Of a stretch of DNA of 64,000 nt, positions 2,481 through 53,555 are shown in pieces. Source of the stretch: Collinsella sp. An307 (GTDB lineage: Bacteria > Actinomycetota > Coriobacteriia > Coriobacteriales > Coriobacteriaceae); the NCBI RefSeq assembly GCF_002161805.1, contig NZ_NFIP01000003.1, forward strand, positions 46,341 to 110,340. The letters are read 5' to 3'. Within the stretch, counting starts at the first letter, position 1. Each line of letters starts with the position of its first letter. Position numbers and translations under genes: made by a program. The notes beneath the pieces are model-generated. The model ran no database searches. It saw only the letters and a list, made by a program, of their open reading frames with translations, and was not told the origin of the DNA.

Positions 2481-3512
2481 CTAGAACTCCCCCTTGACTT
2501 CGTGAACGCCCTCCCTCTCGCCGAATCGACGCCGCCTCCACTCGCTCGGTGCGGTTCCGTATTCCCTCTTGAACGCGGAGGAGAACTTGCTCGGGTTCGC
2601 GTAGCCGACGCGCACGGCGGCTTCGGCGACGCGCATTCCCCTGGCAAGCAGGGCGGCGGCGACCTCCATGCGCCGCTTGCGGAGGTACCCCGCGACAGTG
2701 CTCCCGTATGCCCGCGAGAAGTACTGGTTGAGTGTCGCCGCGCTCACACCGAACTCCGACGCTAGCACGCGGGCGTCGTGGGCACAGTCGAGAGAGCCCT
2801 CGAGCTCGTCGTGCACGGCGGCAACGATGCGCATCTGGGTGCGTGTGAGGATGAAGCGGGGTCTGGCGCAGGAGAGGTCGCGACGTTGGAGGCCAAGCAG
2901 CAAGCCGAGAACCTCGTAGGTGGCCAGAGCCCTGTCGGGTGCTTCGACGAGGGCGGCGATGCGTCTCATATGCTCGTTGAGCTCGCCGTCGCCGCTGAGC
3001 ACGGCGGCGCTGCCCGCCTGTCGCGCGATGGCCTCGACGGCATCCTCGTCATCGAGCAGCGAGAAAAGTGGCGATCGAGCGATACGCGTGTTCACGAACA
3101 CCTCGACGCCCCGGTAGCGTCCCGAGGGGTACCGGAACTCGGCGGGGCGCTCCTGCGAGCAGCTGATGCACACCTCGCCGGCCGAGACCGTCGCCAGACC
3201 CCCGCTCGGGACGTCGACCTCGCAGCGGCCCTCGTGGCACAGGTTTATCGTCAGCCATTTGCCCCGCGAGAACGCGGGGAGGGGGACGGACGGGGCCTCT
3301 GGGACGTTGGGGCACCGCTCGCACGCGAAGTCGACGTTGGCGACGAACAGGTCGCGCGACAGGGGTCGGCCTCGCATGCACCCGCTCCCGACCGGGTGCG
3401 ACAGCACCAGCTCGTAGACGCCGTCGGCGTCTTGGACGAGCTCGACGCCGGAGGCGACGCGCAGGCGCGTCCCCCGGTTGCTCTCCGTATCGGTGAAGGG
3501 TGCGTTCCCCAT
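2481..3512 (-). CDS. AraC-family transcriptional regulator
   Basis: 343 residues from an ATG at 3512. An N-terminal sensory region of about 230 residues with several cysteines is followed by a C-terminal AraC double HTH (ARVLASEFGVSAATLNQYF... and MRVAEAAVRVGYANPSKFSS..FKREYG). It is transcribed away from feoAB across a 169-bp gap, so it may govern feoAB or a neighbouring transport system; that link is inference from position only. A shorter paralogue lies immediately downstream. The cysteine-containing sensory half would suit redox or metal sensing, but the ligand is unknown. Confidence 0.85.
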   Translation of the reverse strand: MGNAPFTDTESNRGTRLRVASGVELVQDADGVYELVLSHPVGSGCMRGRPLSRDLFVANVDFACERCPNVPEAPSVPLPAFSRGKWLTINLCHEGRCEVDVPSGGLATVSAGEVCISCSQERPAEFRYPSGRYRGVEVFVNTRIARSPLFSLLDDEDAVEAIARQAGSAAVLSGDGELNEHMRRIAALVEAPDRALATYEVLGLLLGLQRRDLSCARPRFILTRTQMRIVAAVHDELEGSLDCAHDARVLASEFGVSAATLNQYFSRAYGSTVAGYLRKRRMEVAAALLARGMRVAEAAVRVGYANPSKFSSAFKREYGTAPSEWRRRRFGEREGVHEVKGEF

Positions 3513-3681
3513 AGGCTATCTCCCGTTCGCGCAGTCCAGCCCCATTCGTCTCAAAAGTTTATTTTATCTAACTTGATGAGATTTGGAGCTGAACCTACAT
3601 CGCGGAGTTGAGGGGGCATACGTTCCAGGCTTACTTTGGTGGCCGCGGGCGTCATGCCCGTTCAAGGAAAGGAGCGATTCC

Positions 3682-3906
3682 ATGAGACTATGCGATGTGG
3701 CGACGGGGCTTTCTGCCCGTATCGCATCCGTATCCGGCGACGACCGGTTCGTCTCGCGCGTCACGGCCATCGGGCTGACGGAGGGATGCGCCGTCGAGGT
3801 CCTGCAAAACGTCAAGAACCGGCCCGTGCTTGTGCACGTGCGCGACAGCGACGTGGCGCTCGATCGCGGCGACTGCGTGCGCATCGAGGTGGAGGTGGTC
3901 GCATGA
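3682..3906 (+). CDS. feoA: Ferrous iron transport protein A
   Basis: 74 residues, an SH3-like FeoA domain (MRLCDVATGLSARIASVSGDD...RVTAIGLTEGCAVEVLQN). FeoA is a small cytoplasmic protein that supports the FeoB ferrous iron channel. The ATG at 3682 is chosen because of the RBS AAGGAAAGGAG; an upstream in-frame extension to 3583 has no FeoA homology. Its TGA overlaps the feoB ATG by 4 bp (ATGA), indicating translational coupling. The promoter must lie in the 169-bp gap shared with the divergent AraC gene. Confidence 0.93.
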   Translation: MRLCDVATGLSARIASVSGDDRFVSRVTAIGLTEGCAVEVLQNVKNRPVLVHVRDSDVALDRGDCVRIEVEVVA

Positions 3907-5840
3907 GCTGCGAGAGATGTGCGGCTTCCTGCCCCGCGGCGGGAGGCGCGAAGGCGCCCGCCGCCCGCAAGGCGGCGGGCGGCGTCACGGTCGCGCTGCT
4001 CGGCCAGCCCAACTCGGGCAAGTCGACGCTCTTCAACGGGCTCACGGGGGCGCGCCAGCACGTGGGCAACTGGCCCGGCAAGACCGTGGAGCGGAAGGAG
4101 GGGACGTTCGAGCGCGGCGGCACGGCGTTCCAGGTCGTCGACCTCCCCGGCTCGTACGGGCTCGCGGCCAACTCGCCCGAAGAGGAGGTGACGCGCGACT
4201 ACCTCGCATCGGGCGCTGCCGACATCGTGCTCGTGATGGCCGACGCGTCGCAGCTCGAGCGCAGCCTCTACATGCTCGCCGACTTCGTTGCGGCGTGCCC
4301 GGAGCAGCCGTGCCTGCTCGCCCTCAACCTCATGGACGTCGCCGAGAACCAGGGCAAGCGGATCGACGCCGTCCTTATCGCGCGGCGGCTGGGCGTTCCT
4401 GTGGTGCCGCTCGTCGCCTCGCGCCCCGAGGGATACGGCGCGCTGCTTGACGCGCTTGCACGCACGGTGCGCGAGCGTTCCGTCGTGGATGGCGCGCACC
4501 TGCGCGAGGGGATCGCTGCCGCCCCCGACACGATCCAGGGCACGGCCGCAGCGAAGTTCGCCTGGATCGAGGGGCTGCTCGACGGAGCGGTGGAGGCGCC
4601 CGCGCGCCCGCACGCGCTTTCGCGCTTCGATCGCGTGGTCACGGGCTCGCGCTGGTCGAAGCCCATCACCATCGGCATGATCTTGCTCGGGTTCATCCTG
4701 GCGTTCGTGCCGGCTATTCCCATCATGATGCTCGGCGGCGCCATCTCGTCGCTCGGGCAGGTCGTGGCGGGCGCGCTCGCGCAGGCGGGCGCCCCCGATG
4801 TTCTGGGCAGCTTCCTCGCGGGCGTGGTGTTCAACAGTTTGTGCTTCGGCACCATGATGGTGGGCTACGTCTTCGGCATCAACCTCGTGTTCGGCCTCTA
4901 CGAGGAGGCGGGCTACATGGCGCGCATCTCCTACGTGTTCGACCACACCATGGCGCGCTTCGGGTTGCAGGGCAAGTCGCTCATGCCCTTCCTCATGTGC
5001 CTCGGCTGCACGATGGGCGGCGTGTCGGGTTCGCGCGTCATCGACTCGTGGGGCCAGCGCATGCTCACGGTGATGATGGCCTGGGCCATCCCGTGCGGCT
5101 CGACCTGGGGCGTGGTTCCGGTGCTCGCCGTGGCGTTCTTCGGCGTGGCCGGCGCGCCGCTCGTGATCGTGGGCATCTTCGCCGTGACGATTCTCATCAT
5201 GTGGCTCGTGGGCAGGGTGTTCGGGCCGCGCCTGGTGGCCAAGGGGGAGCGCGCCGGCATGGTCATGGAGCTTCCTCCGTACCATCGGCCGCATCTGGGC
5301 AACGTCGCGCGCGGCGCCCTGCTCAAGAGCCGACAGATGTTCGTGCGAGCCATCCGGGTCGTCGCCCTCTTCGCCTTCGCGATTTGGGCGCTTACCTACA
5401 CCGCGACCGGCAGCGTCGAGGGGTCGGTGCTCTACGCGCTCGGTACCGCCATCGAGCCGGTCACGCGCTTCTTCGGCATGGGTTGGCAGACATTCACCGC
5501 GTGGTTGTGCGCCCTCGTGCTCAAGGAGTCCGCGCTCGGGGTGCTCTCGGGGCTCTTCACGGGTGCCGCGACGCCCAACGCCGTGCTCGTGGGCGTCATG
5601 ACCGGCGCCGCCGCGGCGGCGTCGAACATCGGCGAGGTCATGGCGCAGGCCATCTCGGCTCCCGAGGCGCTCGCGTTCATCTTCGCGTTCACGTTCAACA
5701 TGCCGTGCGCGGCGAGCGTGTCGGCGACCTGGGGTGAGGTGCACTCGACCAAGTGGACTGTCATCACGGCGCTCTTCTACATCTGCTGCTCTCTGCTGTT
5801 GGGGTGCGTCGTCTACCACGTGAGCGCACTGTTCTTGTAG
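3903..5840 (+). CDS. feoB: Ferrous iron transporter B
   Basis: 645 residues. The N-terminal GTPase domain shows G1 GQPNSGKS (residues 34-41), G3 DLPGSYG and G4 NLMD, followed by the polytopic membrane domain with Gate/core motifs (CLGCTMGGVSGSR, WAIPCGSTWGVVPV and FTFNMPCAASVSATWGE). It imports Fe2+ across the cytoplasmic membrane using GTP. An unusual N-terminal extension MSCERCAASCP carries three cysteines before the GTPase. Length is on the short side for FeoB (E. coli 773). No feoC follows. Downstream on the plus strand lies only degraded sequence. Confidence 0.95.
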   Translation: MSCERCAASCPAAGGAKAPAARKAAGGVTVALLGQPNSGKSTLFNGLTGARQHVGNWPGKTVERKEGTFERGGTAFQVVDLPGSYGLAANSPEEEVTRDYLASGAADIVLVMADASQLERSLYMLADFVAACPEQPCLLALNLMDVAENQGKRIDAVLIARRLGVPVVPLVASRPEGYGALLDALARTVRERSVVDGAHLREGIAAAPDTIQGTAAAKFAWIEGLLDGAVEAPARPHALSRFDRVVTGSRWSKPITIGMILLGFILAFVPAIPIMMLGGAISSLGQVVAGALAQAGAPDVLGSFLAGVVFNSLCFGTMMVGYVFGINLVFGLYEEAGYMARISYVFDHTMARFGLQGKSLMPFLMCLGCTMGGVSGSRVIDSWGQRMLTVMMAWAIPCGSTWGVVPVLAVAFFGVAGAPLVIVGIFAVTILIMWLVGRVFGPRLVAKGERAGMVMELPPYHRPHLGNVARGALLKSRQMFVRAIRVVALFAFAIWALTYTATGSVEGSVLYALGTAIEPVTRFFGMGWQTFTAWLCALVLKESALGVLSGLFTGAATPNAVLVGVMTGAAAAASNIGEVMAQAISAPEALAFIFAFTFNMPCAASVSATWGEVHSTKWTVITALFYICCSLLLGCVVYHVSALFL

Positions 5841-6628: not shown

Positions 6629-6678
6629 CAAGTTAGGGGGTATTTATTGAAATTATGTGCTAAATACCCTCTAACTTG
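6629..6678. promoter_or_regulatory. 18-bp inverted repeat before ATPase gene
   Basis: Left arm CAAGTTAGGGGGTATTTA (6629-6646) and right arm TAAATACCCTCTAACTTG (6661-6678) are reverse complements with one mismatch, separated by an AT-rich 14-nt spacer. The element ends 38 bp before the GTG start of the ATPase at 6717. Its position and A/T-rich centre suggest an operator overlapping the promoter. The regulator is unknown; the ATPase could bind its own promoter. Confidence 0.7.
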
Positions 6679-6716: not shown

Positions 6717-7991
6717 GTGGAGCTATTCAGACGTGAGAACTATCTCAGGAAGATTAGGGGCTTCTATCATGATGACGAGATCATAAAGGTCATCACCGGC
6801 GTGCGGCGCTGCGGAAAGTCCTGTCTTATGCAAACCGTTGCCCAAGAGCTCGTCGAGAGTGGCATCAGCTCGGCTTCCATCGTCTACCTCGATCTCGACA
6901 GTCGCAAGCTGCGGAAGGTCAAGACTGCCGACGAGCTCGAGGCAGCGATCGATAGTGCTTCCGCCGGCGCACCTGACGGATTGAAATACCTGTTCATTGA
7001 CGAGGTTCAGAACGTGAGGGGCTACGAGGAGGTTGTGAACGCCTTTCGCACCGATGGGGGTTGGTCCATCTTCATCACCGGCTCTAACAGCTACCTGCTT
7101 TCGGGCGAGCTCATGACCAAGCTGACCGGTCGCTACATCGAGTTCGAGATGCAGACGCTCACCTTCAAGGAATACGAGGACATGAAGGTATTTCTCGGCA
7201 AGTCGGTCAACCCCAATCCCGTGGTAGAGCTCGATGCTTACATCTTGGAGGGCGGCTTTCCCAAGGCGCTCGGATACGAGGCACTCGTCGATAAGCGAGC
7301 TTACGTCAAGTCCGTTGTCGAGGAGATTCTGGAGAAGGACGTCCGTCGCAGGGTTCAAGTTCGTAACATGCCCGTGTTCGAAACGGTCAGAAAGTACATC
7401 ACGAACAATTTTGGGGCAACGACAAGCCTGACTAATATCCTTGACGACCTTGCGAAGCAGGGTGTCCATATTAAGCGCGAGACGCTGGACCGCTACCTTC
7501 GGATACTCGAGGACGCCAAGATCATACGACGTTGCGAGCGCTTTGATATGAAGTCGCGCAGGTCGCTTCGAGGTGAGCAGAAGTACTATCTTGCCGACCT
7601 GAGCTTCTACTTCGCGCTCAACACGGACAACCGCATCAACTACGGGCCCGTGCTGGAGAACATCGTGTACAGCTACGCGCGGAGTTTGGGCTACGAGGTG
7701 AGCGTGGGGCGTATCGGCAAGCTCGAGTGCGACTTCGTCATGAGGTCGCCTGCGATGGAGTACGCCTACGTGCAGGTGGCGATGACCATCATGAATAGCC
7801 TCTCGACCGAGGATCGCGAGTACCGCCCGCTCGAGCAGATACGGGACAACTGGCCCAAGTTCGTCATCACGCGCAACGACCCCATCCAGCACCGCAGCGG
7901 CATCGTGCACGAGAACGTGACAGAGCTGATCGGGGAGGGACGGACGTTCGGGCTGGCGCAGCGGAACGCCTCTCCTGAGACGGACTGCTAA
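6717..7991 (+). CDS. AAA+ ATPase with DUF4143 (COG1373-type)
   Basis: 424 residues from a GTG at 6717 (RBS GGAGGTGGG). Walker A is GVRRCGKS (about residues 28-35), Walker B YLFIDEVQ, sensor-type TGSN follows. The C-terminal half is a DUF4143 region with a winged-helix-like part and a distal YEVSVGRIGKLECDFV...YVQVAM segment that resembles a degenerate PD-(D/E)xK nuclease fold. Such ATPases are widespread accessory genes of unknown role, often linked to mobile or defence regions. Base composition is lower in GC than the flanks, which suggests acquisition. A paralogue with different flanking repeats lies at 47413. Confidence 0.88.
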   Translation: MELFRRENYLRKIRGFYHDDEIIKVITGVRRCGKSCLMQTVAQELVESGISSASIVYLDLDSRKLRKVKTADELEAAIDSASAGAPDGLKYLFIDEVQNVRGYEEVVNAFRTDGGWSIFITGSNSYLLSGELMTKLTGRYIEFEMQTLTFKEYEDMKVFLGKSVNPNPVVELDAYILEGGFPKALGYEALVDKRAYVKSVVEEILEKDVRRRVQVRNMPVFETVRKYITNNFGATTSLTNILDDLAKQGVHIKRETLDRYLRILEDAKIIRRCERFDMKSRRSLRGEQKYYLADLSFYFALNTDNRINYGPVLENIVYSYARSLGYEVSVGRIGKLECDFVMRSPAMEYAYVQVAMTIMNSLSTEDREYRPLEQIRDNWPKFVITRNDPIQHRSGIVHENVTELIGEGRTFGLAQRNASPETDC

Positions 7992-43025: not shown

Positions 43026-44078
43026 CTAGAAGCCGTTGCGTGCGGCGAAGGACTCCGAGCTGTCAAAGATGCCCTCGACGCCCTCTGCCCACGCGGCAAA
43101 ATCCGGCGTGTCTGCGATGATGCCGTCCGCCTCCCATACGGCTTGGTGAGTGAGGTCCCACGAGGTCGTAGGCGCGGGGCGTACGGGCAGGTACGGGCCG
43201 AGGTAGGTTGGATTGAGCAAAAAGAATGCCCCGCCGTCGCAGCGCGCGGCAAAATCGCGCAGCGCACGTTTGGCGGCGCGCTGTTTATCGAGCTTGTAGA
43301 GCAGGATTGTGCGCGCAAGGAGGTACCAGGGCGAGTCGTCCACCGCAAGGCCGTCGGTCGCCGGCCCCGCTGCCTCGAGCTCGTGCACAAAGGAGAAGAA
43401 GCCCTCTTCGTCCTCAAGACGGGCGAGGGCGAGCAGGATGGTGCCCTCGGCATGGTTGGGATAGCCTGTCGCCACGCGCACCATGCGCGCGTAGGAGAGC
43501 GCCACGCGGTAGCGCGCGCTTGCAAGGCAAAGGCTCGAGAGCGCCTCGAGCGTATGCAGCCAGCCCACAACCTCCGGCTCGCTTGCCGTGCGCTCCGCCG
43601 CACTCATGCCGAGCTCCTCGAGTGAGGCCGTCGACCAGTAGTGCGGCGCCTCGAGGTCAAAGCCCTGGACGTTGGCGGTAAGGTGCGTGCGCACCGTGCC
43701 CTCGAGCTTGAGGAGATCCGCAAGGGCGCTGTCCAGGGGCACGTCGGCGAGCATGATGGTGCAGAGCTGCGCATCGATGCACAGGCGATCGCGCTCGGCA
43801 ATATGGGCAAACGCGATGCGCGACTCGCCAAAGAGCTGGGCGCGCCGGCGCTCAAACTCCTCGTCGGGCAGGTCCTCCATATCTGCCATGTGCTTGCGCA
43901 TGCGCTCGTGCGTCTGCATATAGGCAAGCAGCGCTTGGGCATGGGGCTCGGTTGCGTACTTCTCGGGCCGGGCGGCGATGTCGTCGTGGACAAGCGTACG
44001 TGCCGCGGGCGTGAGGTCGGGATGTGCGACGAGATAGCGGCGCTCGAGGTAGGCGCTCAGATAGGCACGCGGGTCCAT
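43026..44078 (-). CDS. TPR-like helical protein, copy 2 of tandem pair
   Basis: 350 residues. All-helical, Ala/Leu-rich with repeating helix pairs (e.g. LHTLEALSSLCLASARYRVALSYARM, ILLALARLEDEEGFFSF), suggesting tetratricopeptide-like repeats. No signal peptide. The ATG (44078) overlaps the upstream stop (TGATG), so it is translationally coupled to its paralogue. Family not recognised. Confidence 0.7.
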   Translation of the reverse strand: MDPRAYLSAYLERRYLVAHPDLTPAARTLVHDDIAARPEKYATEPHAQALLAYMQTHERMRKHMADMEDLPDEEFERRRAQLFGESRIAFAHIAERDRLCIDAQLCTIMLADVPLDSALADLLKLEGTVRTHLTANVQGFDLEAPHYWSTASLEELGMSAAERTASEPEVVGWLHTLEALSSLCLASARYRVALSYARMVRVATGYPNHAEGTILLALARLEDEEGFFSFVHELEAAGPATDGLAVDDSPWYLLARTILLYKLDKQRAAKRALRDFAARCDGGAFFLLNPTYLGPYLPVRPAPTTSWDLTHQAVWEADGIIADTPDFAAWAEGVEGIFDSSESFAARNGF

Positions 44079-45160
44079 CAGTTATCACCCCCGGGGCGCC
44101 CGCGGCGCACCACCCCCGGCGTTGGCACGTCGAGTGAGGAGAGCTCCTCCTGCACGAGCGGGTGCGTGGCGACCCACGTGGCGAGCGAGGCGTTGTCGGG
44201 CGCGCCGAGCCCCTCCTGCAGAAGCGGCGTGGCCTCCGAGAGCGCCAAGATCAGCTCGTCCTCGCTGCCGGGCAGCACATGCACACGTGCAAAGACGCCC
44301 TCGGGAAACTCCGCCTGGTAGTAAAGGGGCTGAGCGCTGCGCGGATACGTTTTCATAAGCGTGCGCAACGACCTTGTTGCGCCGGCAAAGTCGAGGTCGT
44401 GGTAGGCGCAGGCGAGCTCGGCGATAATCGACCATGCATCGAGGGTGCGCTCGGGCTTTGCCTGACGGCGCCTAAACGGTATGGGCGGCAGGTAGGCGGC
44501 CGCGTGCGTGCGTCTGAATTGGGCGAGCTCCTCACGCGTCGCCTCGAGTTTGGCGAGGGCGAGCTCGGCGGTATGACGCACCTCGCCCGGATCGTCGGGA
44601 GCCGCCTTGAGGCAGTCCTCGGCGCAGGTAAGTGCGAGGCGGTATTTGCCCGCAATGAGCGCGTGGCTGGCGAGTGCCCCGAGCCAGCGCAGGTACGGGC
44701 GTTGCCCGAGGTCGAGGGCAAACTCGCGGTCGTAGGGGTCGGTCGCCTCGGCGCGCATGCGCGCAAGGTCGCGCTCCACCTCGGGGCGGTGCTCGATCAG
44801 GTAGGCGACGTACTCGTCGTTGGACGCCGCGCTAAGGGCGGCGAGCATGCGCTTTGCGTCCCAGTTGCCGGGGTCGAGCTCGCAGGCCTCTTGGAGCTGG
44901 TGCTCGGCCTGCACGGTTACGCGCTCGGCCTCCGCATCGTCGGCAATAAAGGGGGCACGGTAGTCGACGGCCTCCGTCGCCGCGGCAACCAGATGGAACG
45001 AGCGGTCGCGGTCGTGCACGATGAGCTGCGCAGGGTCGCTATGGTAGGCGTCCATGCAGCGCTGGACAACGGCCTCGTTTTCCAGCGGATAGATGTGCTC
45101 ACGGCGAAGCGTCTCGAGGGTGAGGCGCAGGCAATCTTCTTGTATGGGGTCGAACGCCAT
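44078..45160 (-). CDS. TPR-like helical protein, copy 1 of tandem pair
   Basis: 360 residues from ATG 45160 (RBS GAAGGGAGG). Helix-rich with TPR-like units (LQEACELDPGNWDAKRMLAALSA, ALTCAEDCLKAAPDDPGEVR, IAELACAYHDLDFAGATRSL). Shares general layout with the gene downstream, so the two probably arose by duplication. Function unknown; such proteins usually act as scaffolds. Confidence 0.7.
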   Translation of the reverse strand: MAFDPIQEDCLRLTLETLRREHIYPLENEAVVQRCMDAYHSDPAQLIVHDRDRSFHLVAAATEAVDYRAPFIADDAEAERVTVQAEHQLQEACELDPGNWDAKRMLAALSAASNDEYVAYLIEHRPEVERDLARMRAEATDPYDREFALDLGQRPYLRWLGALASHALIAGKYRLALTCAEDCLKAAPDDPGEVRHTAELALAKLEATREELAQFRRTHAAAYLPPIPFRRRQAKPERTLDAWSIIAELACAYHDLDFAGATRSLRTLMKTYPRSAQPLYYQAEFPEGVFARVHVLPGSEDELILALSEATPLLQEGLGAPDNASLATWVATHPLVQEELSSLDVPTPGVVRRGRPGGDN

Positions 45161-45286
45161 GGCGCCTCCCTTCAGATTCGTTTTAGCGGGACGCGCATCA
45201 AAGTGCAGTGCGGCTTGGGTCCCGTGAATCGGATAGCGTACCACACCAGTGTACGCGCTTCATGAAGGTTCACGGGAACGGCGCTG

Positions 45287-45670
45287 CTACATGAGCTGGG
45301 CGGCATCCGCTTCGTCCTCTACGACCTCAACCACCATGCCGTGGGGCAGGCACACGATCTGTTCGCCGGCAGAAGCGATGGGGTCGTGCTCAACGCAGAC
45401 CTGGTTGTCGCAGTCTGCTCGCACAACATCCACCTTGCCTCCCGAGATGGCTACGTCATTGGTGCCCTCAGAGGTTTCTACGGTATAGGTGACCTCAGTG
45501 TTTAAGGGGTCGGCGCGATAGAAGCCCTCGCGTGTCTGACAGACGACCATGAGTGTATCTTGCGCAGGCGCAGGTGCGAGCGTGGTTACGGCAAACCAGA
45601 CGAGGGCACCCGCTGCGGCGAGCGCCGCCACGGCGATGAGCACGCGATCTCCCGGCTTGAGTTTTGCCAC
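45287..45670 (-). CDS. NusG domain II-type membrane protein
   Basis: 127 residues from GTG 45670 (RBS GGGAGGAACC). One N-terminal membrane helix (VLIAVAALAAAGALVWFAVT) and an outer domain with VRADCDNQVCVEHDPIAS and GEQIVCLPHGMVVEV, a pattern of the NusG-domain-II family in which two or three cysteines form a small redox-active or metal site. Members are often near heptaprenyl or quinone-synthesis and FMN-binding genes; none is seen here. Confidence 0.82.
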   Translation of the reverse strand: MAKLKPGDRVLIAVAALAAAGALVWFAVTTLAPAPAQDTLMVVCQTREGFYRADPLNTEVTYTVETSEGTNDVAISGGKVDVVRADCDNQVCVEHDPIASAGEQIVCLPHGMVVEVVEDEADAAQLM

Positions 45671-45888
45671 GGTTCCTCCCCAAAATGCCTTACCGTCATC
45701 TATTTGCTGCCATCCATAGTACCCGTATCAAACCTTAAGCTTCAAAACCGCATAGAGAAGGCGTGCCGACGGTACAATCCCTAACGAAAGCCCTGCGCAG
45801 GTGCGGGGTACGGCGACGACGGCCCTTGGGTGGCCGGCGCGCCACGAGGGATGCCACGGCTCGGCCGGGCATCGGCAAGGAGGTTCCC

Positions 45889-47103
45889 ATGGGACGTTTT
45901 ACCAACCCGCGTGACCTGTATTTTGGCGAGGGCGCTCGTCATGAGGTGAAAAACCTAAAAGGCAAGCGCGCCATGATCGTCACCGGCGGCGGCTCCATGC
46001 GCCGCGGTGGCTTTTTGCAGGACGTTGAGGCAGACCTCAAAGAGGCCGGGTTTGAGGTCGAGATTTTCGAGGGCGTTGAGTCCGACCCGTCGGTCGACAC
46101 GGTGATGCGCGGTGCCAAGGCCATGGAGGCCTTCCAGCCCGATTGGATTATCGGCATCGGCGGCGGCAGCCCCATCGACGCCGCCAAGGCGATGTGGCTC
46201 TTCTACGAGTACCCGAACGAGACCTTTGAGGAGGCCATCGTCCCGTTCAGCTTCCCGGAGCTTCGCACCAAGGCCCGCTTCTGCGCCATCGCCTCCACCT
46301 CCGGCACGGCGACGGAGGTGACGGCGTTCTCCGTCATCACCGATTACGAGAAGGGCATCAAGTACCCGCTCGCCGACTTCAACATCACGCCCGATGTGGC
46401 CATCGTCGACCCCGAGCTCACCTACACCATGCCCAAGAAGCTCTGCGCGCACACCGGCATGGACGCGCTCACCCACGCTATTGAGGCCTACGTCTCCACC
46501 GCGGGCTCCATGTTCACCGACGCTAACGCGCTGCATGCTATCCGCGAGATCGTCGAGTGGCTGCCCAAGTCCTACGAGGGCGATCACGAGGCACGTCAGC
46601 ACATGCACGAGGCGCAGTGCATCGCCGGCATCGCCTTTTCGAGCGGTCTTCTGGGCATCGTGCACTCCATGGCGCACAAGACCGGCGCCGCCTTTACGGG
46701 CGATCACATCATCCACGGTTGCGCCAACGCTATGTACCTCGGCAAGGTCATTCAGTTCAACGCTAAAGACGCGCGTGCCAAGAGCCGCTACGCCTACATC
46801 GCGCGCGAGGTGCTGCACCTCGCCGGCGAGACCGAGGACGAGCTCGTGGCGTCCCTTGTCCAGTGCATCCGCGACCTCAACGACAAGCTCGACATCCCGC
46901 AGGGCATCAAGAACTACGGCCCCGGCGGCGTGAAGGCAGACGAGTCGGTGATTGACTACGCCGAGTTCGAGGAGAAGCGTGCTCGCGTTGCCGTCGACGC
47001 CATCGGCGACGCCTGCACCGGCTCCAACCCGCGTCAGCCCACGCCTGAGGAGATGGAGAAGCTCCTCGAGTGCGTCTACAACGACGTGGACGTGGACTTC
47101 TAA
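45889..47103 (+). CDS. Iron-containing alcohol dehydrogenase
   Basis: 404 residues from ATG 45889 (RBS AAGGAGG). Fe-ADH family: nucleotide site GIGGGSPIDAAKAM, TSGTATEVTAFSVIT, metal-binding His residues in HTGMDALTHAIEAYVS and GIVHSMAHKTGA...HGCANAMYL. Reduces aldehydes to alcohols (ethanol/butanol type) or oxidises them with NAD(P)H; role in fermentation. An intergenic hairpin and an ATPase gene follow. Confidence 0.93.
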   Translation: MGRFTNPRDLYFGEGARHEVKNLKGKRAMIVTGGGSMRRGGFLQDVEADLKEAGFEVEIFEGVESDPSVDTVMRGAKAMEAFQPDWIIGIGGGSPIDAAKAMWLFYEYPNETFEEAIVPFSFPELRTKARFCAIASTSGTATEVTAFSVITDYEKGIKYPLADFNITPDVAIVDPELTYTMPKKLCAHTGMDALTHAIEAYVSTAGSMFTDANALHAIREIVEWLPKSYEGDHEARQHMHEAQCIAGIAFSSGLLGIVHSMAHKTGAAFTGDHIIHGCANAMYLGKVIQFNAKDARAKSRYAYIAREVLHLAGETEDELVASLVQCIRDLNDKLDIPQGIKNYGPGGVKADESVIDYAEFEEKRARVAVDAIGDACTGSNPRQPTPEEMEKLLECVYNDVDVDF

Positions 47104-47123
47104 GCGAGGTTTCGGCTCCCACC

Positions 47124-47209
47124 GAGAGGCCCCGGAGGGTTCCCTTCGAAACGTCCTCGCCGCTTTGCGGCTGCGGAATGTTTCTCAGGGATACCCTCCG
47201 GGGCCTCTC
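47124..47209. repeat. Conserved-core hairpin element, copy 1
   Basis: Perfect 17-bp stem (47124-47140 with 47193-47209; arm GAGAGGCCCCGGAGGGT) around a 37-nt core (47148-47184) that carries its own GCCGC-TTT-GCGGC hairpin and ends GAAAC...GTTTC. The core matches the one at 53489-53525 (reverse strand) at 36 of 37 bases while the outer arms do not match. No U-tract follows. Confidence 0.85.
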
Positions 47210-47279
47210 TGCATTTCACTAGTGCTTGAGAGCAGGGCGCAGTCGATTGCGGCTCCCATTCTTTGTCATCGGAAACCCG

Positions 47280-47388
47280 GAAAAGTTGCAATTTTATCCG
47301 GAACAATGGCCGGAAAAGTTGCATTTCTATCTAGAACAGCTGCCTGAAAAGTTGCAAATCTAGGTAAAATAGGGTTTGAAAAGATGCA
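47280..47388. repeat. Four-copy ~33-bp direct repeat before ATPase gene
   Basis: GAAAAGTTGCA at 47280, 47313 and 47346 and GAAAAGATGCA at 47378 recur at 33, 33 and 32 bp, near three helical turns, in an AT-richer stretch. The first two are preceded by a CCGG. The last unit ends 24 bp before the ATPase ATG. A repeated operator is likely. Confidence 0.85.
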
Positions 47389-47412
47389 ATTCACCAGGTT
47401 GGATGGTGTTCG

Positions 47413-48768
47413 ATGCTGAGAAGAAAAATAACCACGTTCCTTGAGCAGTGGCGCGCAAACAAGCACCAGGAATGCTTACTCATCAAAGGCGCTCGTCAGG
47501 TGGGTAAGTCATATGCGGTGGAGCGCTTTGGCGAGCGCGCGTACCAACACTTCATCAAAATTGACTTCATCCTCGAGCCGGGGCTGCGCGAAGTGTTTGA
47601 AGGCTCTATCGACGCGGATTCCATCTTCCGCCGGATATCTCTGATAAAAGAGGACGCTCGTTTCGTGCCTGGTGAGACATTGCTGTTTTTAGACGAGATT
47701 CAAGAGTGTCCCCTCGCACGAACAGCGTTGAAGTATCTCGCCTTGGATGACCGGATCGATGTCATAGCTTCGGGCTCGCTTTTGGGAATCGAGTTCAAGG
47801 AAGAGCAGACGTCGATTCCCGTGGGCTATGAGCGCCAGGTCGAGATGCATCCGCTCGATTTCGAGGAGTTTCTCTGGGCGCGTGGGTACGATGCCCAAAC
47901 CCTTGATGGCCTGAGGGAATATGCCGTCGATCTTGCACAGGTGCCGAATGTAGTCCACGAGCACATGATGGGGTTGCTGCGCGAGTACCTCGCCGTCGGC
48001 GGAATGCCTGACGTCGTCCAGCAGTTCGTCGACTCGCAGAGCTTCGCCGTCGCTCACGAGGTACAGCGTGCCATCCTCGCTTCTTATGAGGACGACATAG
48101 CGCGTTATGCGACTGCGTCGGAGCGCGTGAAGGCGCGGGCATGCTATCGCTCGCTACCTCGGCAGCTCGCCAAGGAAAACACCAAATTCCAGTATTCGGT
48201 GGTTGAGAAGCGCGCCTCGGCGCGAAAGTTCGAAGGCTCCGTCGATTGGCTTGAGGGGGCGCGCATGGTGCTGCGGTGCCGGGCGCTGAGCACGGCGGCT
48301 TTCCCGCTGAAGAGCTATGAGCAGAACGATAGGTTCCGGTTGTATGCCAACGACACGGGACTGCTCATGGGTATGCATGACTTCACCATGATGGCGCCGG
48401 TGGTCAACAACACACTGAAGGGGCCTATGAAAGGCGGCCTGTACGAGAATCTCGTCGCCTGCATGTTGTCCGCCCGCGATTACCCCCTGCGCTTTTGGCG
48501 AAACGACCGTGGTGACCGTGAGATTGAGTTTCTACTCGATGGTGCGGATACGACGGTGGTACCGATAGAGGTAAAGGCTGGACGGGGGAGCACGGTCTCG
48601 CTGAACGAATTTCTGGACCGCGACGACGTACACGTGGGTTACAAGTTTCTGGACGGTAACGTGGGGCGCGTGGGCAAGAAGGTCTCGCTTCCGCTGTATC
48701 TGCTGCCATTCGTGAACCTTTGCACACTGCCGCCCGCCATGACCGCTGAGGAGCGCCGCGCGGATTAG
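47413..48768 (+). CDS. AAA+ ATPase with DUF4143, second copy
   Basis: 451 residues. Walker A GARQVGKS, Walker B LLFLDEIQECP, then the sensor ASGSLLG. The DUF4143 C-terminal half has GGLYENLVACML..RFWRNDRGDREIEFLL..VVPIEVKAG, the E-x-x-x-D/V-x-I-E-V-K pattern of PD-(D/E)xK nucleases. About 25% similar by eye to the ATPase at 6717, with a different subfamily look. Preceded by a direct-repeat array. Such genes are typical accessory genes of unknown function. Confidence 0.88.
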   Translation: MLRRKITTFLEQWRANKHQECLLIKGARQVGKSYAVERFGERAYQHFIKIDFILEPGLREVFEGSIDADSIFRRISLIKEDARFVPGETLLFLDEIQECPLARTALKYLALDDRIDVIASGSLLGIEFKEEQTSIPVGYERQVEMHPLDFEEFLWARGYDAQTLDGLREYAVDLAQVPNVVHEHMMGLLREYLAVGGMPDVVQQFVDSQSFAVAHEVQRAILASYEDDIARYATASERVKARACYRSLPRQLAKENTKFQYSVVEKRASARKFEGSVDWLEGARMVLRCRALSTAAFPLKSYEQNDRFRLYANDTGLLMGMHDFTMMAPVVNNTLKGPMKGGLYENLVACMLSARDYPLRFWRNDRGDREIEFLLDGADTTVVPIEVKAGRGSTVSLNEFLDRDDVHVGYKFLDGNVGRVGKKVSLPLYLLPFVNLCTLPPAMTAEERRAD

Positions 48769-49001
48769 GCGGTCCCGAGCACTCCGTCTGATGTGCGGCG
48801 CGCACCATTTGTGGTGCCTCTCCTTGTTCGTTCTCGCGCCGATGGGTATTGCTGCGGCCGGCATCGCTGCAATAGCGGCATCTCGCAAGAGGTAGCTTCG
48901 CCCACATGGTCTTTCAGGAGGGTCGGGACATCGTGCCCGGCCCTTCTTGTTTGTGCTCGCCCTGTACGGGGGCAAAGCGAAGTGCTACGATGACGCTGCT
49001 G

Positions 49002-49230
49002 TTTCAGGGCGGGGTGGAATTCCCCACTGGCGGTGAATCGGTCAGACGGCCGGGCGCGGCGGCGCGTGTGCGCTGTGGCGTGCGGGGCAAGATGCCTTCC
49101 GTCTGGGTGTGCGGCAAAGGTGTCACATGCAATGCCGATGAGCCCGCGAACCCGTCAGGCATTGGGTTGCCTGCGGGCCGATCCGGTGAGATCCCGGGGC
49201 CAACGGTTAGAGTCCGGATGGAAGAGGCAG
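49002..49230 (+). ncRNA. FMN riboswitch (RFN element)
   Basis: Contains the RFN landmarks in order: CAGGGCGGGGTGGAATTCCC, CACTGGCGGTGAA, then a variable GC-rich arm, AGCCCGCGA, and the end GGGCCAACGGTTAGAGTCCG. Directly upstream of the RibU gene. The final GAGGCAGGTG near the start codon could be hidden when FMN binds, blocking translation. Confidence 0.95.
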
Positions 49231-49239
49231 GTGACTCAT

Positions 49240-49809
49240 ATGGCTGAACAGTCTTCGCACATCCATTTTGAGAATACGAATCGGTGGAGCACCAAGCAGT
49301 TGGTGACCATGGCGCTCATGTGCGCGGTGGCCGCCATCCTCATGTTCGTGCAGATACCGCTCATCCCGGCGGCGCCGTTTCTGACTTACGACCCCTCGCT
49401 CGTACCGGCGATGATCTCGGGCTTTATCTACGGTCCGGGCTCGGGCGTGGCGGTGGGTGTGGCCGCGGTTGCCATCCACGCGCTCACCACGGGCGACTGG
49501 GTCGGCGCACTCATGAACGTCGTGGCAACGATCTTCTTTGTCTTGCCAGCGGCGCTTGTGGCCGGCCGTGTCCAGTCGCTTCCCGGTCGCGTGGCGGGCC
49601 TGGTCCTCGGCGTTATCTTGGCAACAGCTGCCTCGATTGTGTCCAACCTCACTATCGGCGTGTGGTTCTGGTACGGATCGGCCGATGCTATCCTTCCGCT
49701 TATGGTTCCTGCGGTGATTCCGTTTAACCTTGCAAAGACCACGCTCAACGCGGTGCTCTCGCTTGCGGTTTTCTCCGCCGTGTCGGCAATCACGGGCGAG
49801 CGTCGCTAG
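49240..49809 (+). CDS. ribU: ECF transporter S component, riboflavin (RibU-like)
   Basis: 189 residues, six membrane helices. The N-terminal MALMCAVAAILMFVQIPLIPAAPFLTYDPS is the hallmark of RibU (flavin-binding loop plus the AxxxA contact helix for EcfT). An FMN riboswitch upstream fixes the substrate as riboflavin/FMN. It is followed by fused EcfA and EcfT genes with 5 bp between. Confidence 0.93.
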   Translation: MAEQSSHIHFENTNRWSTKQLVTMALMCAVAAILMFVQIPLIPAAPFLTYDPSLVPAMISGFIYGPGSGVAVGVAAVAIHALTTGDWVGALMNVVATIFFVLPAALVAGRVQSLPGRVAGLVLGVILATAASIVSNLTIGVWFWYGSADAILPLMVPAVIPFNLAKTTLNAVLSLAVFSAVSAITGERR

Positions 49810-49814
49810 CAGCT

Positions 49815-51653
49815 ATGATTCGCTGCGAGAACATCGTCTACTCCTATGATGGGAAGACGCGGGCGCTCGACGGGGTCAATCTTACGATTGCAGATGGCGA
49901 GTTTCTTTGCGTGCTCGGCGGCAACGGCTCGGGTAAGTCCACGCTCGCAAAGCACCTGAACGCGCTTATCGTTCCCGACGAGGGGCGCGTGACCGTTGAG
50001 GGATTCGACACGGCAGACCCCGAGTACGTCTACGACATTCGCTCCCGTGTAGGACTTGTGTTCCAAAATCCCGATGACCAGCTCGTTGCCACGCTGGTCG
50101 CAGACGACGTTGCCTTCGGTCCGGAGAATCTGGGTGTAGCGCCGCAGGATATCGAGGCGGGTGTTGCCCGTGCGCTCGACGCGGTGGGCCTGGGCGGCTT
50201 CGAGCGGCGCGAGACCCATGCGCTCTCCGGCGGGCAGAAGCAGCGTGTCGCTATCGCGGGCGTCCTTGCTATGAAACCGCATGTCATCGTGCTCGATGAG
50301 GCAACCGCTATGCTCGACCCCCGTGGCCGGCGCGGCCTCATGCGCGCAGCGCGCGCCTTGCATGAGCAGGGCATGACCGTTGTCATGATTACGCACTTTA
50401 TGGAAGAGGCGGCCGACGCCGATCGTGTGGTGGTCCTTGACCAGGGCAAGATCGCGCTTGAGGGAACGCCTGCCGAGGTGCTGACGCACGCAGATGAACT
50501 CTCCCGCTTGGAGCTCGATGTGCCCCCTTCTTGCGCACTCGCGGTGGCGCTTGCGCGCGGCGGGATTGCGGTCGAGCCTCGGGTTGACGAGGATGCCATG
50601 GTCGTCGAGATTGCGCGTGCCTTTACCGGTGCCGCCGCCCAAGCAGAGGCGCCCGCGCGTTCCGTTGCGGGGGATCCGGCTGGCCCTGCTGCGGCGGACT
50701 CGGCAGGTCCTGCTGCGGCGGCGTCCGCGGGCGAGGTATGCCTTGCGCTCAAGGGTGTGAGCTACAGCTACGAGACGTCCTCGCGCGAGCGCGCTCGCCG
50801 GTCGCGCCGACGCGCGAACGCGCGGCGTGCGGCGTGGGGGAGCGACCCCAATGAGGTCTGGGCCTTGCGCGATGTTGACCTCGCGGTGCACCAGGGCGAG
50901 TTCCTCGGCATCGCGGGTCACACCGGTTCGGGCAAGTCGACTCTCATCCAGCATCTGAACGGACTCATCCATCCCACGGAAGGCACGGTCGAGCTCTTTG
51001 GTGCGGACCTTGCCGGCCGCCGCGCCGCAGCCGTAGCAAAAGGGCGCGCGGGAATCGTCTTTCAGTACCCTGAGCAGCAGCTCTTTGCGCGTACGGTTTT
51101 TGAGGACGTTGCCTTTGGTCCGCGTAACCTCGGCATGTCCGAGGCTGAGGTTGCCGAGCGTGTGCGCGAGGCGCTCGATTCGGTAGGCCTTGCGTTTGAC
51201 GAGGTGGCAGAAAAGAGCCCCTTCGCCCTCTCCGGCGGGCAACAGCGCCGCTGCGCGTTTGCCGGCGTCATCGCCATGCGCCCCGACGTTCTTGTGCTCG
51301 ACGAGCCTGCCGCCGGACTCGATCCTGCTGCTCGGCGCGAGTTCCTCGGCCTCATCGCCCGCCTAAATGAGCAGGGCCTCACCGTGGTCATGGTCTCCCA
51401 CGGCATGGACGACCTCGCTTCGCTGGCAGATCGCATCGTCGTCTTGAACGAGGGCCGGGTGGCGCTCGAGGGGGTGCCGCGCACGGTCTTTGCGCGCGCG
51501 GAGGAGCTCGAGCGCATCGGGCTCGGCCTCCCCGCCGCAGAGCGCATGGCGCGGCGTCTGCGCGAGGCGGGTGTGCCGGTAGGCGAGGACGTCTTTCTCA
51601 CGGTGGACGAGCTCGCCGGCGCTCTCAGCGCCCTCAAGGGGATGAGGTCGTAA
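49815..51653 (+). CDS. ecfA: Fused EcfA1-EcfA2 energy-coupling factor ATPase
   Basis: 612 residues: two complete ABC ATPases in one chain. Half 1 has GGNGSGKS, the QNPDDQLVA Q-loop, LSGGQKQR and VLDEATAMLD; half 2 GHTGSGKS, QYPEQQLFA, LSGGQQRR and LVLDEPAAGLD. An Ala/Gly-rich linker (about 273-305, GPAAADSAGPAAAASAG) joins them. The halves resemble EcfA1 and EcfA2 respectively. They power uptake by EcfT with RibU and other S components. The stop overlaps the EcfT start (TAATG). Confidence 0.94.
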   Translation: MIRCENIVYSYDGKTRALDGVNLTIADGEFLCVLGGNGSGKSTLAKHLNALIVPDEGRVTVEGFDTADPEYVYDIRSRVGLVFQNPDDQLVATLVADDVAFGPENLGVAPQDIEAGVARALDAVGLGGFERRETHALSGGQKQRVAIAGVLAMKPHVIVLDEATAMLDPRGRRGLMRAARALHEQGMTVVMITHFMEEAADADRVVVLDQGKIALEGTPAEVLTHADELSRLELDVPPSCALAVALARGGIAVEPRVDEDAMVVEIARAFTGAAAQAEAPARSVAGDPAGPAAADSAGPAAAASAGEVCLALKGVSYSYETSSRERARRSRRRANARRAAWGSDPNEVWALRDVDLAVHQGEFLGIAGHTGSGKSTLIQHLNGLIHPTEGTVELFGADLAGRRAAAVAKGRAGIVFQYPEQQLFARTVFEDVAFGPRNLGMSEAEVAERVREALDSVGLAFDEVAEKSPFALSGGQQRRCAFAGVIAMRPDVLVLDEPAAGLDPAARREFLGLIARLNEQGLTVVMVSHGMDDLASLADRIVVLNEGRVALEGVPRTVFARAEELERIGLGLPAAERMARRLREAGVPVGEDVFLTVDELAGALSALKGMRS

Positions 51654-52456
51654 TGGGTGCCTTCTCCTTTGGCAGCTACTATCCTGGCGACGGGGTGCTC
51701 TACCGGCTCGATCCTCGCGTGAAGCTGCTGGGCGGCATCGCGTTTCTCATCATTACGCTTCTGGCGCGCACCTTTGCGGCGCTCGTGCCTCCGGCGCTGT
51801 TTGTCGTGGCACTCTATCTGCTTGCCCGCGTACCCGCCGGCCGCGCCGTTCGCTCGGTGGCGCCGCTCCTCGGCATCGTTGTGGTCGTGGGCATCCTCAA
51901 CCTGTTCACCGACCACAGCGGTGCCATCCTCGTCCAGCTCGGACCCCTTGCCGTCAGCGAGGGGAGCCTCTCTTCCTTTGCCTTCATCTCAGTACGCATG
52001 GTCATCATGATGTGCGCGATGAGCCTTGTGACCATGACCACGCAAACGCTCGACCTTACCCATGCGGTGGAGCGCCTGCTTGCGCCGCTTGCGCGCTTTG
52101 GCGTGCCGGCGCACGAGATTGGCATGATGCTAGGGCTAGCCCTGCGCTTCATGCCGCAGTTTGCATCGGAGTTCACGCAAACCTACCGTGCGCAGGTAAG
52201 CCGCGGTGCGCGCCTTGCGGGCGGGCCTTTGGGAGGCGTGCGCATGCTCTCCTCGGTCTCCATACCGCTGTTTGCCAGCATCTTCCGTCACGCGGAGACG
52301 CTCTCCGCTGCCATGGATGCACGCTGCTACCACGGCGAGCAGGGCCGCACGCGCATGCATCCCCTGCGTTTTGCCGCGTGTGACGCCGGCGCCGCGGCGT
52401 GTCTGGTCGCGCTTGCCGTCGCGGTGATGGCGGTGAGTGCGCTCACATCCCTGTAG
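51653..52456 (+). CDS. ecfT: EcfT transmembrane energy-coupling component
   Basis: 267 residues. Starts FGSYYPGDGVLYRLDPRVKL, has about five membrane helices and the coupling-helix region with SRGARLAGG and FRHAETLSAAMDARCY, the A-x-R-G-type signatures that contact the ATPases. Starts within the previous stop (TAATG). Confidence 0.92.
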   Translation: MGAFSFGSYYPGDGVLYRLDPRVKLLGGIAFLIITLLARTFAALVPPALFVVALYLLARVPAGRAVRSVAPLLGIVVVVGILNLFTDHSGAILVQLGPLAVSEGSLSSFAFISVRMVIMMCAMSLVTMTTQTLDLTHAVERLLAPLARFGVPAHEIGMMLGLALRFMPQFASEFTQTYRAQVSRGARLAGGPLGGVRMLSSVSIPLFASIFRHAETLSAAMDARCYHGEQGRTRMHPLRFAACDAGAAACLVALAVAVMAVSALTSL

Positions 52457-53467: not shown

Positions 53468-53546
53468 GGGCCTCGGGGGTTGCCCCGTGAAACATTTCGC
53501 AGCCGCAAAGCGGCGAGGACGTTTCACGGGGCAACCCCCGAGGCCC
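53468..53546. repeat. Conserved-core hairpin element, copy 2
   Basis: Perfect 26-bp stem (53468-53493 with 53521-53546) over a loop holding GCCGCAAAGCGGC. The inner 37 nt (53489-53525) match the core of the copy at 47148-47184 in reverse orientation, 36/37. Outer arms are unrelated between copies. It lies between convergent genes. Confidence 0.85.
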
Positions 53547-53555
53547 CTGTTGCCG

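Follow-up and report, generated by a model that had tools for sequence, protein, structure and literature searches.

A three-turn motif array that accompanies PDC-S01 ATPase-nuclease genes across phyla, a candidate private operator

Introduction

Two papers describe PDC-S01 as a fusion of ATPase and PD-(D/E)XK domain, a phage-defence candidate without experimental validation; it is reported to be the fourth commonest defence type across prokaryotes and, in rumen genomes, the single locus met most often (PMC12988326, PMC13356809). An upstream repeat array is mentioned neither in their passages on PDC-S01 nor in the other papers returned from open-licence PubMed Central, preprints being outside this scope.

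The nearest described case is that of RptR, which represses an island with restriction-modification and DarTG2 genes: three direct repeats overlap the promoter of the defence genes, and two repeats are needed for full repression (PMC12255303). In toxin-antitoxin operons and with controller (C) proteins, a self-encoded DNA binder controls its own dangerous product (PMC12255303). The locus described here resembles these latter systems by the separate operators of paralogues and differs from them in that a single ATPase-nuclease would act both as effector and, presumably, as regulator. At plasmid origins, iterons are helix-phased direct repeats with a pitch of about 22 bp, to which a winged-helix initiator binds. 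The ATPase family and autoregulation are known as kinds; we found in the papers returned no family-wide, sequence-diverse array of constant pitch on PDC-S01.

Results and Discussion

Four motif copies in front of a DUF4143 ATPase gene

The window, that is, the whole 64-kb stretch of Collinsella sp. An307 DNA that was analysed, carries an array of direct repeats (47280-47388) just upstream of an ATPase gene:

47280-47290, plus strand: repeat 1, GAAAAGTTGCA, exact copy
47313-47323, plus strand: repeat 2, GAAAAGTTGCA, exact copy
47346-47356, plus strand: repeat 3, GAAAAGTTGCA, exact copy; the best match to a -35 is its 5′ part, CTGAAA (47344-47349)
47365-47370, plus strand: weak putative -10, TAAAAT, with a 15-nt spacer, flanked by repeats 3 and 4
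47378-47388, plus strand: repeat 4, GAAAAGATGCA, just 3′ of the putative -10 and with its end 24 bp from the start codon
47413-48768, plus strand: AAA_14-DUF4143 ATPase (Pfam), 451 aa; PADLOC candidate PDC-S01

The preliminary description had spoken of four 33-bp repeats before the DUF4143 ATPase. There are indeed four copies, but 33 bp is their pitch: orthologue comparison revealed a conserved unit of about 12 bp, tGAAAAGtTGCA, with the 20 bp between copies nearly free of information. The near-exact three-turn spacing was borne out by measurement, the pitch being 33, 33 and 32 bp, as was the end of the array 24 bp from the start codon (ATG at 47413). Allowing up to one mismatch, we found no GAAAAGTTGCA-type site in the 64-kb window beyond the four, and only six sites for the 13-mer GGAAAAGTTGCAW in the 2.2-Mb genome, three at the window array, two in a second array on another contig (C14:115438-115515) and one elsewhere. 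The G+C content is 40% in the array stretch, 58% in the ATPase gene and 63% in the window. The array and the ATPase lie between a gene of the iron-containing alcohol dehydrogenase type and genes for an ECF transporter, and no small regulator gene is evident between the adjoining genes.

The array differs from CRISPR arrays, iterons and the RptR repeats. A CRISPR array was taken to consist of near-identical repeats of about 23-50 bp between unique spacers, whereas here about 12 bp are conserved, in four copies, with promoter-like elements inside. As in iterons, there are several direct repeats in helical phase; unlike iterons, they have a pitch of 33 rather than about 22 bp, contain promoter-like elements and precede a chromosomal ATPase gene (on a 248-kb contig), with no Rep gene in the ORF list of 44000-52000. 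Finally, RptR is a small homodimer that represses as a protein apart, encoded by its own rptR gene, and its 9-bp repeats contain a TAGCTA palindrome, while the window array has an asymmetric, clade-variable motif at a 33-bp pitch and no separate regulator is evident.

At 47124-47209 and 53469-53548 we noted a 90-bp interspersed palindromic element, REP- or terminator-like, with the core TCGAAACGTCCTCGCCGCTTTGCGGCTGCGGAATGTTTC; genomes across the genus each have many copies of it, on either strand. An FMN riboswitch (RF00050, 76.5 bits; 48996-49233) precedes an ECF transporter S-component gene.

A predicted STAND-like ATPase with a nuclease-fold domain

The PADLOC PDC-S01 model matches the window ATPase along its full length (E 2.2e-139, residues 1-434 of 451), and PDC-S01 models also match the other array-bearing relatives along their whole length. 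Three parts of the protein matter for what follows:

47488-47511, plus strand: Walker A, GARQVGKS, residues 26-33; Walker B is D94-E95
48109-48348, plus strand: candidate DNA reader, a predicted winged-helix region that follows the STAND-like ATPase, residues ~233-312
48424-48714, plus strand: PD-(D/E)XK nuclease-fold domain, residues ~338-434; conserved E345, D/E372, E386 and K388

Walker A and B are intact, G26, R28, G31, K32, D94 and E95 being invariant among 63 homologues, and the catalytic residues of the nuclease domain are kept in homologues (E345, D/E372, E386, which is D in two, and K388). In the AlphaFold2 model (pLDDT 94.6), residues 1-323 match the STAND ATPases PAB2304 (2qen, Z 16.4) and SSO1545 (2fna, Z 15.3), followed by CED-4 (Z 13.8) and then, at lower Z, by plant NLRs and Avs5, all of which have the same ATPase, helical and winged-helix arrangement. 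Foldseek places ORC/Cdc6 next after the STAND ATPases, and the fold neighbours include the defence STAND proteins Avs3 and Avs5. These STAND matches stop at residue ~323-390, and the C-terminal domain is matched by nucleases instead. Modelled alone (pLDDT 91.9), it has mostly PD-(D/E)XK nucleases among the fold neighbours listed, with McrC first (Z 8.1), then Can2 (Z 7.7), EndoMS (Z 7.3) and VRR_NUC (Z 7.0); Foldseek alone gives weak matches (best E 0.009). As modelled, the window protein is a STAND-like ATPase with a winged helix and a PD-(D/E)XK nuclease fold. In STAND ATPases the winged helix often does not read DNA, and in CED-4 and NLRs its role is in ATPase control, not in sequence reading; ORC/Cdc6 proteins bind origin DNA.

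The array is conserved across the ATPase family

A protein search of genome contigs retrieved relatives from Actinomycetota, Bacteroidota, Spirochaetota and Bacillota. All 39 non-redundant close relatives (phmmer E < 1e-115, about 45% identity or more) carry two to four motif copies just 5′ of the start codon; in four of them (L020, L021, L029 and L031) two copies are direct and one is inverted. We then scored 151 DUF4143 homologues, with proteins 30-100% identical, by the best three-copy chain of 12-mers in the 200 bp upstream (maximum 36, cut-off at least 30). The cut-off was reached by 71/151 homologues and by 4/220 controls, taken upstream of unrelated genes in these loci, two of these four (L093 and L094) coming from loci fetched by motif search. 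With the pitch left free between 18 and 60 bp, 142/144 spacings were 32, 33 or 34 bp; redundancy is considerable, 39 arrays being left at 85% protein identity, all of them at 32-34 bp. Homologues on viral contigs also have arrays (12/27 score at least 30), with other motifs and a pitch of 32-33 bp.

Stacking 35 copies from ten orthologues gave about 1.4-1.8 bits at most tGAAAAGtTGCA positions and mostly 0-0.4 bits at spacer positions. Among orthologues at 60-69% protein identity, the 12 motif positions are conserved and the spacers randomised. This argues against a recent tandem duplication and for selection on the motif rather than on the whole unit. That the array is an unselected duplication or a relic is also hard to reconcile with the same pitch for unrelated motif sequences; arrays without a gene, and one beside an eroded ATPase (L100), would fit such a history, which we nevertheless consider extremely unlikely for the array.

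The motif follows the ATPase clade

In close relatives, the common form of the motif is an A-tract followed by two or three bases and TGCA, with a variable core. In Coriobacteriia the core is GTTGCA or GTGGCA in one group and CGATGCA in another; TCTGCA and TATGCA are found in Bacteroidales and Treponema, the TATGCA type being common to Bacteroidota and Spirochaetota, and TTTATGCA in one Christensenellaceae member. Across the 151 homologues the motifs are very diverse, as illustrated by AAAAAGTGGCAT, AACTCGCTCATGAA, TCTGCATTTCATC, TGCCAATTTTTGTA and CACATTTTCCGATG, and further by ATACGTCCTTAAAA, TCGGTATTTTTGTA, ATGCCGATTTCGGT, AAGTTCTGGATATC and TGCGTATTATTG.

The check that had been proposed for this locus was whether arrays co-vary with the ATPase subfamily. 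On a tree of 41 ATPases, six motif types require 6 changes, for a minimum of 5 and a shuffled mean of 22.6, and none of 200 shuffles was as low as 6. Motif and protein similarity are correlated as well (rho 0.54, Mantel p 0.001). At one locus (L039), tandem ATPase genes (1477-2841 and 2995-4314) each have a separate array in front. Altogether, the array travels with the ATPase gene and not with the host. The proposal that each ATPase has its own cognate site is thus well supported, by arrays in 39/39 close relatives whose sequence tracks the clade across phyla and by the separate arrays of the tandem genes. Within the protein, a search for one region that predicts the motif type gave a weak signal, in close pairs only: residues 217-290 showed a partial correlation with the motif of 0.2-0.34 in such pairs, and the recognition-helix segment gave no signal over all pairs.

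These results bear on the identity of the binder. A host-encoded regulator, rather than the ATPase, could bind the array as an operator, in keeping with the frequent failure of STAND winged helices to read DNA and with the persistence of orphan arrays in genomes without a matching ATPase (see below). Such a regulator would have to account for a motif type that tracks the ATPase clade and not the host, and for several arrays of different sequence in one genome or locus (L039); moreover, a factor with matching specificity would be needed in four phyla. We therefore regard a host regulator as unlikely. Binding by the ATPase itself is probable, on the combined evidence that no separate regulator is evident, that a winged helix is predicted and that the motif moves with the gene.

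Inverted-repeat versions

An inverted repeat had been described just upstream of the other DUF4143 ATPase of the window, which starts at 6717 and likewise matches PDC-S01. This element is real:

6629-6678, no strand assigned: inverted repeat before the second ATPase, with 18-bp arms at 6629-6646 and 6661-6678

Its arms are 32 bp apart from centre to centre, and the second ATPase belongs to a wider inverted-repeat type. Among homologues without a direct array, 43/75 show a near-perfect inverted repeat, its arms matching at 11 or 12 of 12 positions; examples are TACGGCCTTATTTTCGCCA..TGCGAAAATAAGGCCGTA from Coriobacteriia and TTCCGAAAAATCA..TGATTTTTCGGAA from Bacteroidales. By the tests used, about 32/151 homologues have neither an array nor a strong inverted repeat.

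Elsewhere in the same genome (contig C2; L003, reverse complement), a DUF4143-domain gene has three CGGAAAA copies upstream at a pitch of about 23 bp, possibly a two-turn version of the array.

The array overlaps promoter-like elements in orthologues

In the window, the best sigma-70-like pair is CTGAAA-15-TAAAAT, which is weak, and a strict promoter scan at the array reported none. The orthologues are more telling. In 8/10 orthologues of the same motif group, the (C/T/G)(T/G)GAAA of the repeat is the best -35 at a constant offset, as judged by consensus match only, and where another copy follows, the -10 sits 14-15 nt before it. Strong matches include the near-consensus TTGAAA-16-TATAAT of L011 and GTGAAA-17-TATAAT of L014. 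Occupied repeats would hide the -35 and the start site, which is the layout of a repressed promoter. The array is very probably an operator, and we judge repression fairly likely, rather than activation or sensing.

The same geometry weighs on two other readings. First, the array might be a loading or sensing platform on which the ATPase-nuclease oligomerises, to be activated or released upon phage interference, or a site that marks self DNA. A simple repressor would need less regularity in copy number and three-turn pitch, the fold neighbours include the origin binders ORC/Cdc6 and the defence STAND proteins Avs3 and Avs5, and the palindromic versions hold a similar position, all of which would suit a platform. 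Its place over promoter elements is, however, what plain autoregulation would lead one to expect, and a search of phage contigs turned up no such array outside coding repeats or a replication-type gene; a platform is thus distinctly unlikely. Second, the array might work as RNA, as a structured leader or a CRISPR-like transcript, since the strand folds somewhat better than shuffles. We rejected the leader, the fold z-score being only -2.64 and the spacers free. Promoter-like elements inside the array would leave most copies untranscribed, the spacers are not conserved, no Rfam family lies at the array and the array of L103 is inverted relative to its gene, so that a function as RNA is as improbable as an origin by unselected duplication.

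Orphan arrays and gain or loss of the cassette

The array was also searched from the DNA side, with two three-copy patterns with free bases over 396 Coriobacteriia genomes; the reversed control gave two hits for the first pattern, in one genome, and none for the second. Arrays adjoin ATPases in eight genomes (G000, G015, G231, G207, G384, G372, G096 and G260), with the motif inverted relative to the gene in G260. Arrays without an ATPase were found in G054, G011, G228 and G200 and as the second array of the Collinsella sp. An307 genome, and G311 has a two-copy orphan array before a rubrerythrin-like gene. Orphan loci of the same sequence are L090, L095, L096, L097, L100 and L109.

Two of the orphan loci, L100 and L097, can be recognised as what deletion has left of ATPase loci: G054 has the window locus with the ATPase internally deleted to a 45-residue remnant, and the G011 array is that of G015, spacers included, with the ATPase gene gone. 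No ATPase more than 39% identical to that of the window is present in G228, G311, G200 and G011, where the orphan arrays would thus be without a matching reader, and the genomes of L090, L095, L096 and L097 have no ATPase of the matching clade. Deletion products and missing ATPases of the matching clade together suggest that relics explain most orphan arrays. Arrays of the same sequence beside unrelated genes, or their absence from orthologous loci, had been named as evidence that would speak against a cognate site. Same-sequence arrays do occur without an ATPase, which goes part of this way; against this, two are demonstrable relics.

As for the second array of the genome (C14:115438, L109), we discarded its origin as a copy of the window array, the spacers being unrelated; no ATPase remains were found near it. 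We likewise discarded bare arrays in viral contigs as a phage decoy or target: each hit is either a coding repeat or part of a replication-type gene, and none is beside an ATPase.

Some arrays without an ATPase have neighbours of other kinds. In G228, an orphan GAAAAGTTGCA-type array (L096, 1501-1577) is followed, 80-90 bp further on, by a hipBA-like pair with a palindromic promoter element of its own. In G311 (L090, ~1330-1540), a second array of three GGTTAGCAAATTGAC-like copies lies next to the orphan GAAAAGTTGCA pair, before the rubrerythrin-like gene. In G212 (L093, 1502-1577, reverse complement), an array of another motif, three AAAACCTTGCA-like copies at a 33-bp pitch, precedes a gene for 317 aa. 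The product is no ATPase and gives a weak REase_MTES_1575 hit, so that the same array layout occurs with another nuclease-like gene.

Presence of the cassette is patchy. A sister genome (G053) lacks the following stretch:

47229-48981, no strand assigned: array, ATPase and some flank, replaced by ~104 bp in G053

Both flanks in G053 are 94-96% identical to the window. Four other genomes (G052, G050, G051 and G048) have a different sequence after the same upstream gene and no cassette, and at least one homologue is present in 48/65 genomes of the family, with up to six per genome. This patchiness, the empty site of G053, the horizontal spread over phyla and the solo arrays could suggest that the array serves a mobile cassette as its end or attachment site during insertion or excision. 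It is nonetheless found 5′ only, with no second array and no target duplication seen, the empty-site junction of G053 lies off the array edge, and arrays overlap promoter-like elements in fixed phase. A cassette end is accordingly very unlikely.

A probable private operator for a solitary ATPase-nuclease gene

The explanation that we favour, modestly probable when taken as a whole, is that the array is a private autoregulatory operator for a solitary ATPase-nuclease gene, travelling with the gene and with the ATPase itself as its probable binder. The 12-bp copies at three-turn pitch would line one face of the DNA over the promoter, the [CT]TGAAA of the motif serving as the -35, with the -10 some 15-17 nt further on and the next copy over the transcription start. 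Several ATPase subunits may bind side by side and cooperatively via the winged-helix region, and protein bound at the array would block RNA polymerase. The gene would in this way hold its own dangerous nuclease low; withdrawal of the protein or a change in its state, for instance upon infection, would end this, and the presumed role would be antiviral. Motifs that diverged per lineage would let several systems share a genome and not regulate one another, while array and gene would move jointly between hosts.

A bolder version, which we hold doubtful, is that the PDC-S01 family forms a one-gene circuit in which the nuclease reads its private array and assembles there, occupancy of the array acting as switch or sensor for immunity, and motif and reader co-diverge so that many copies can coexist per cell.

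For the PDC-S01 family, a cis-element that follows the gene across phyla offers a handle on its probable DNA target, its control and the insulation of paralogues. Solo arrays show where ATPase genes were lost. Moreover, the arrays predict some twenty protein-DNA specificity pairs, which can be compared side by side.
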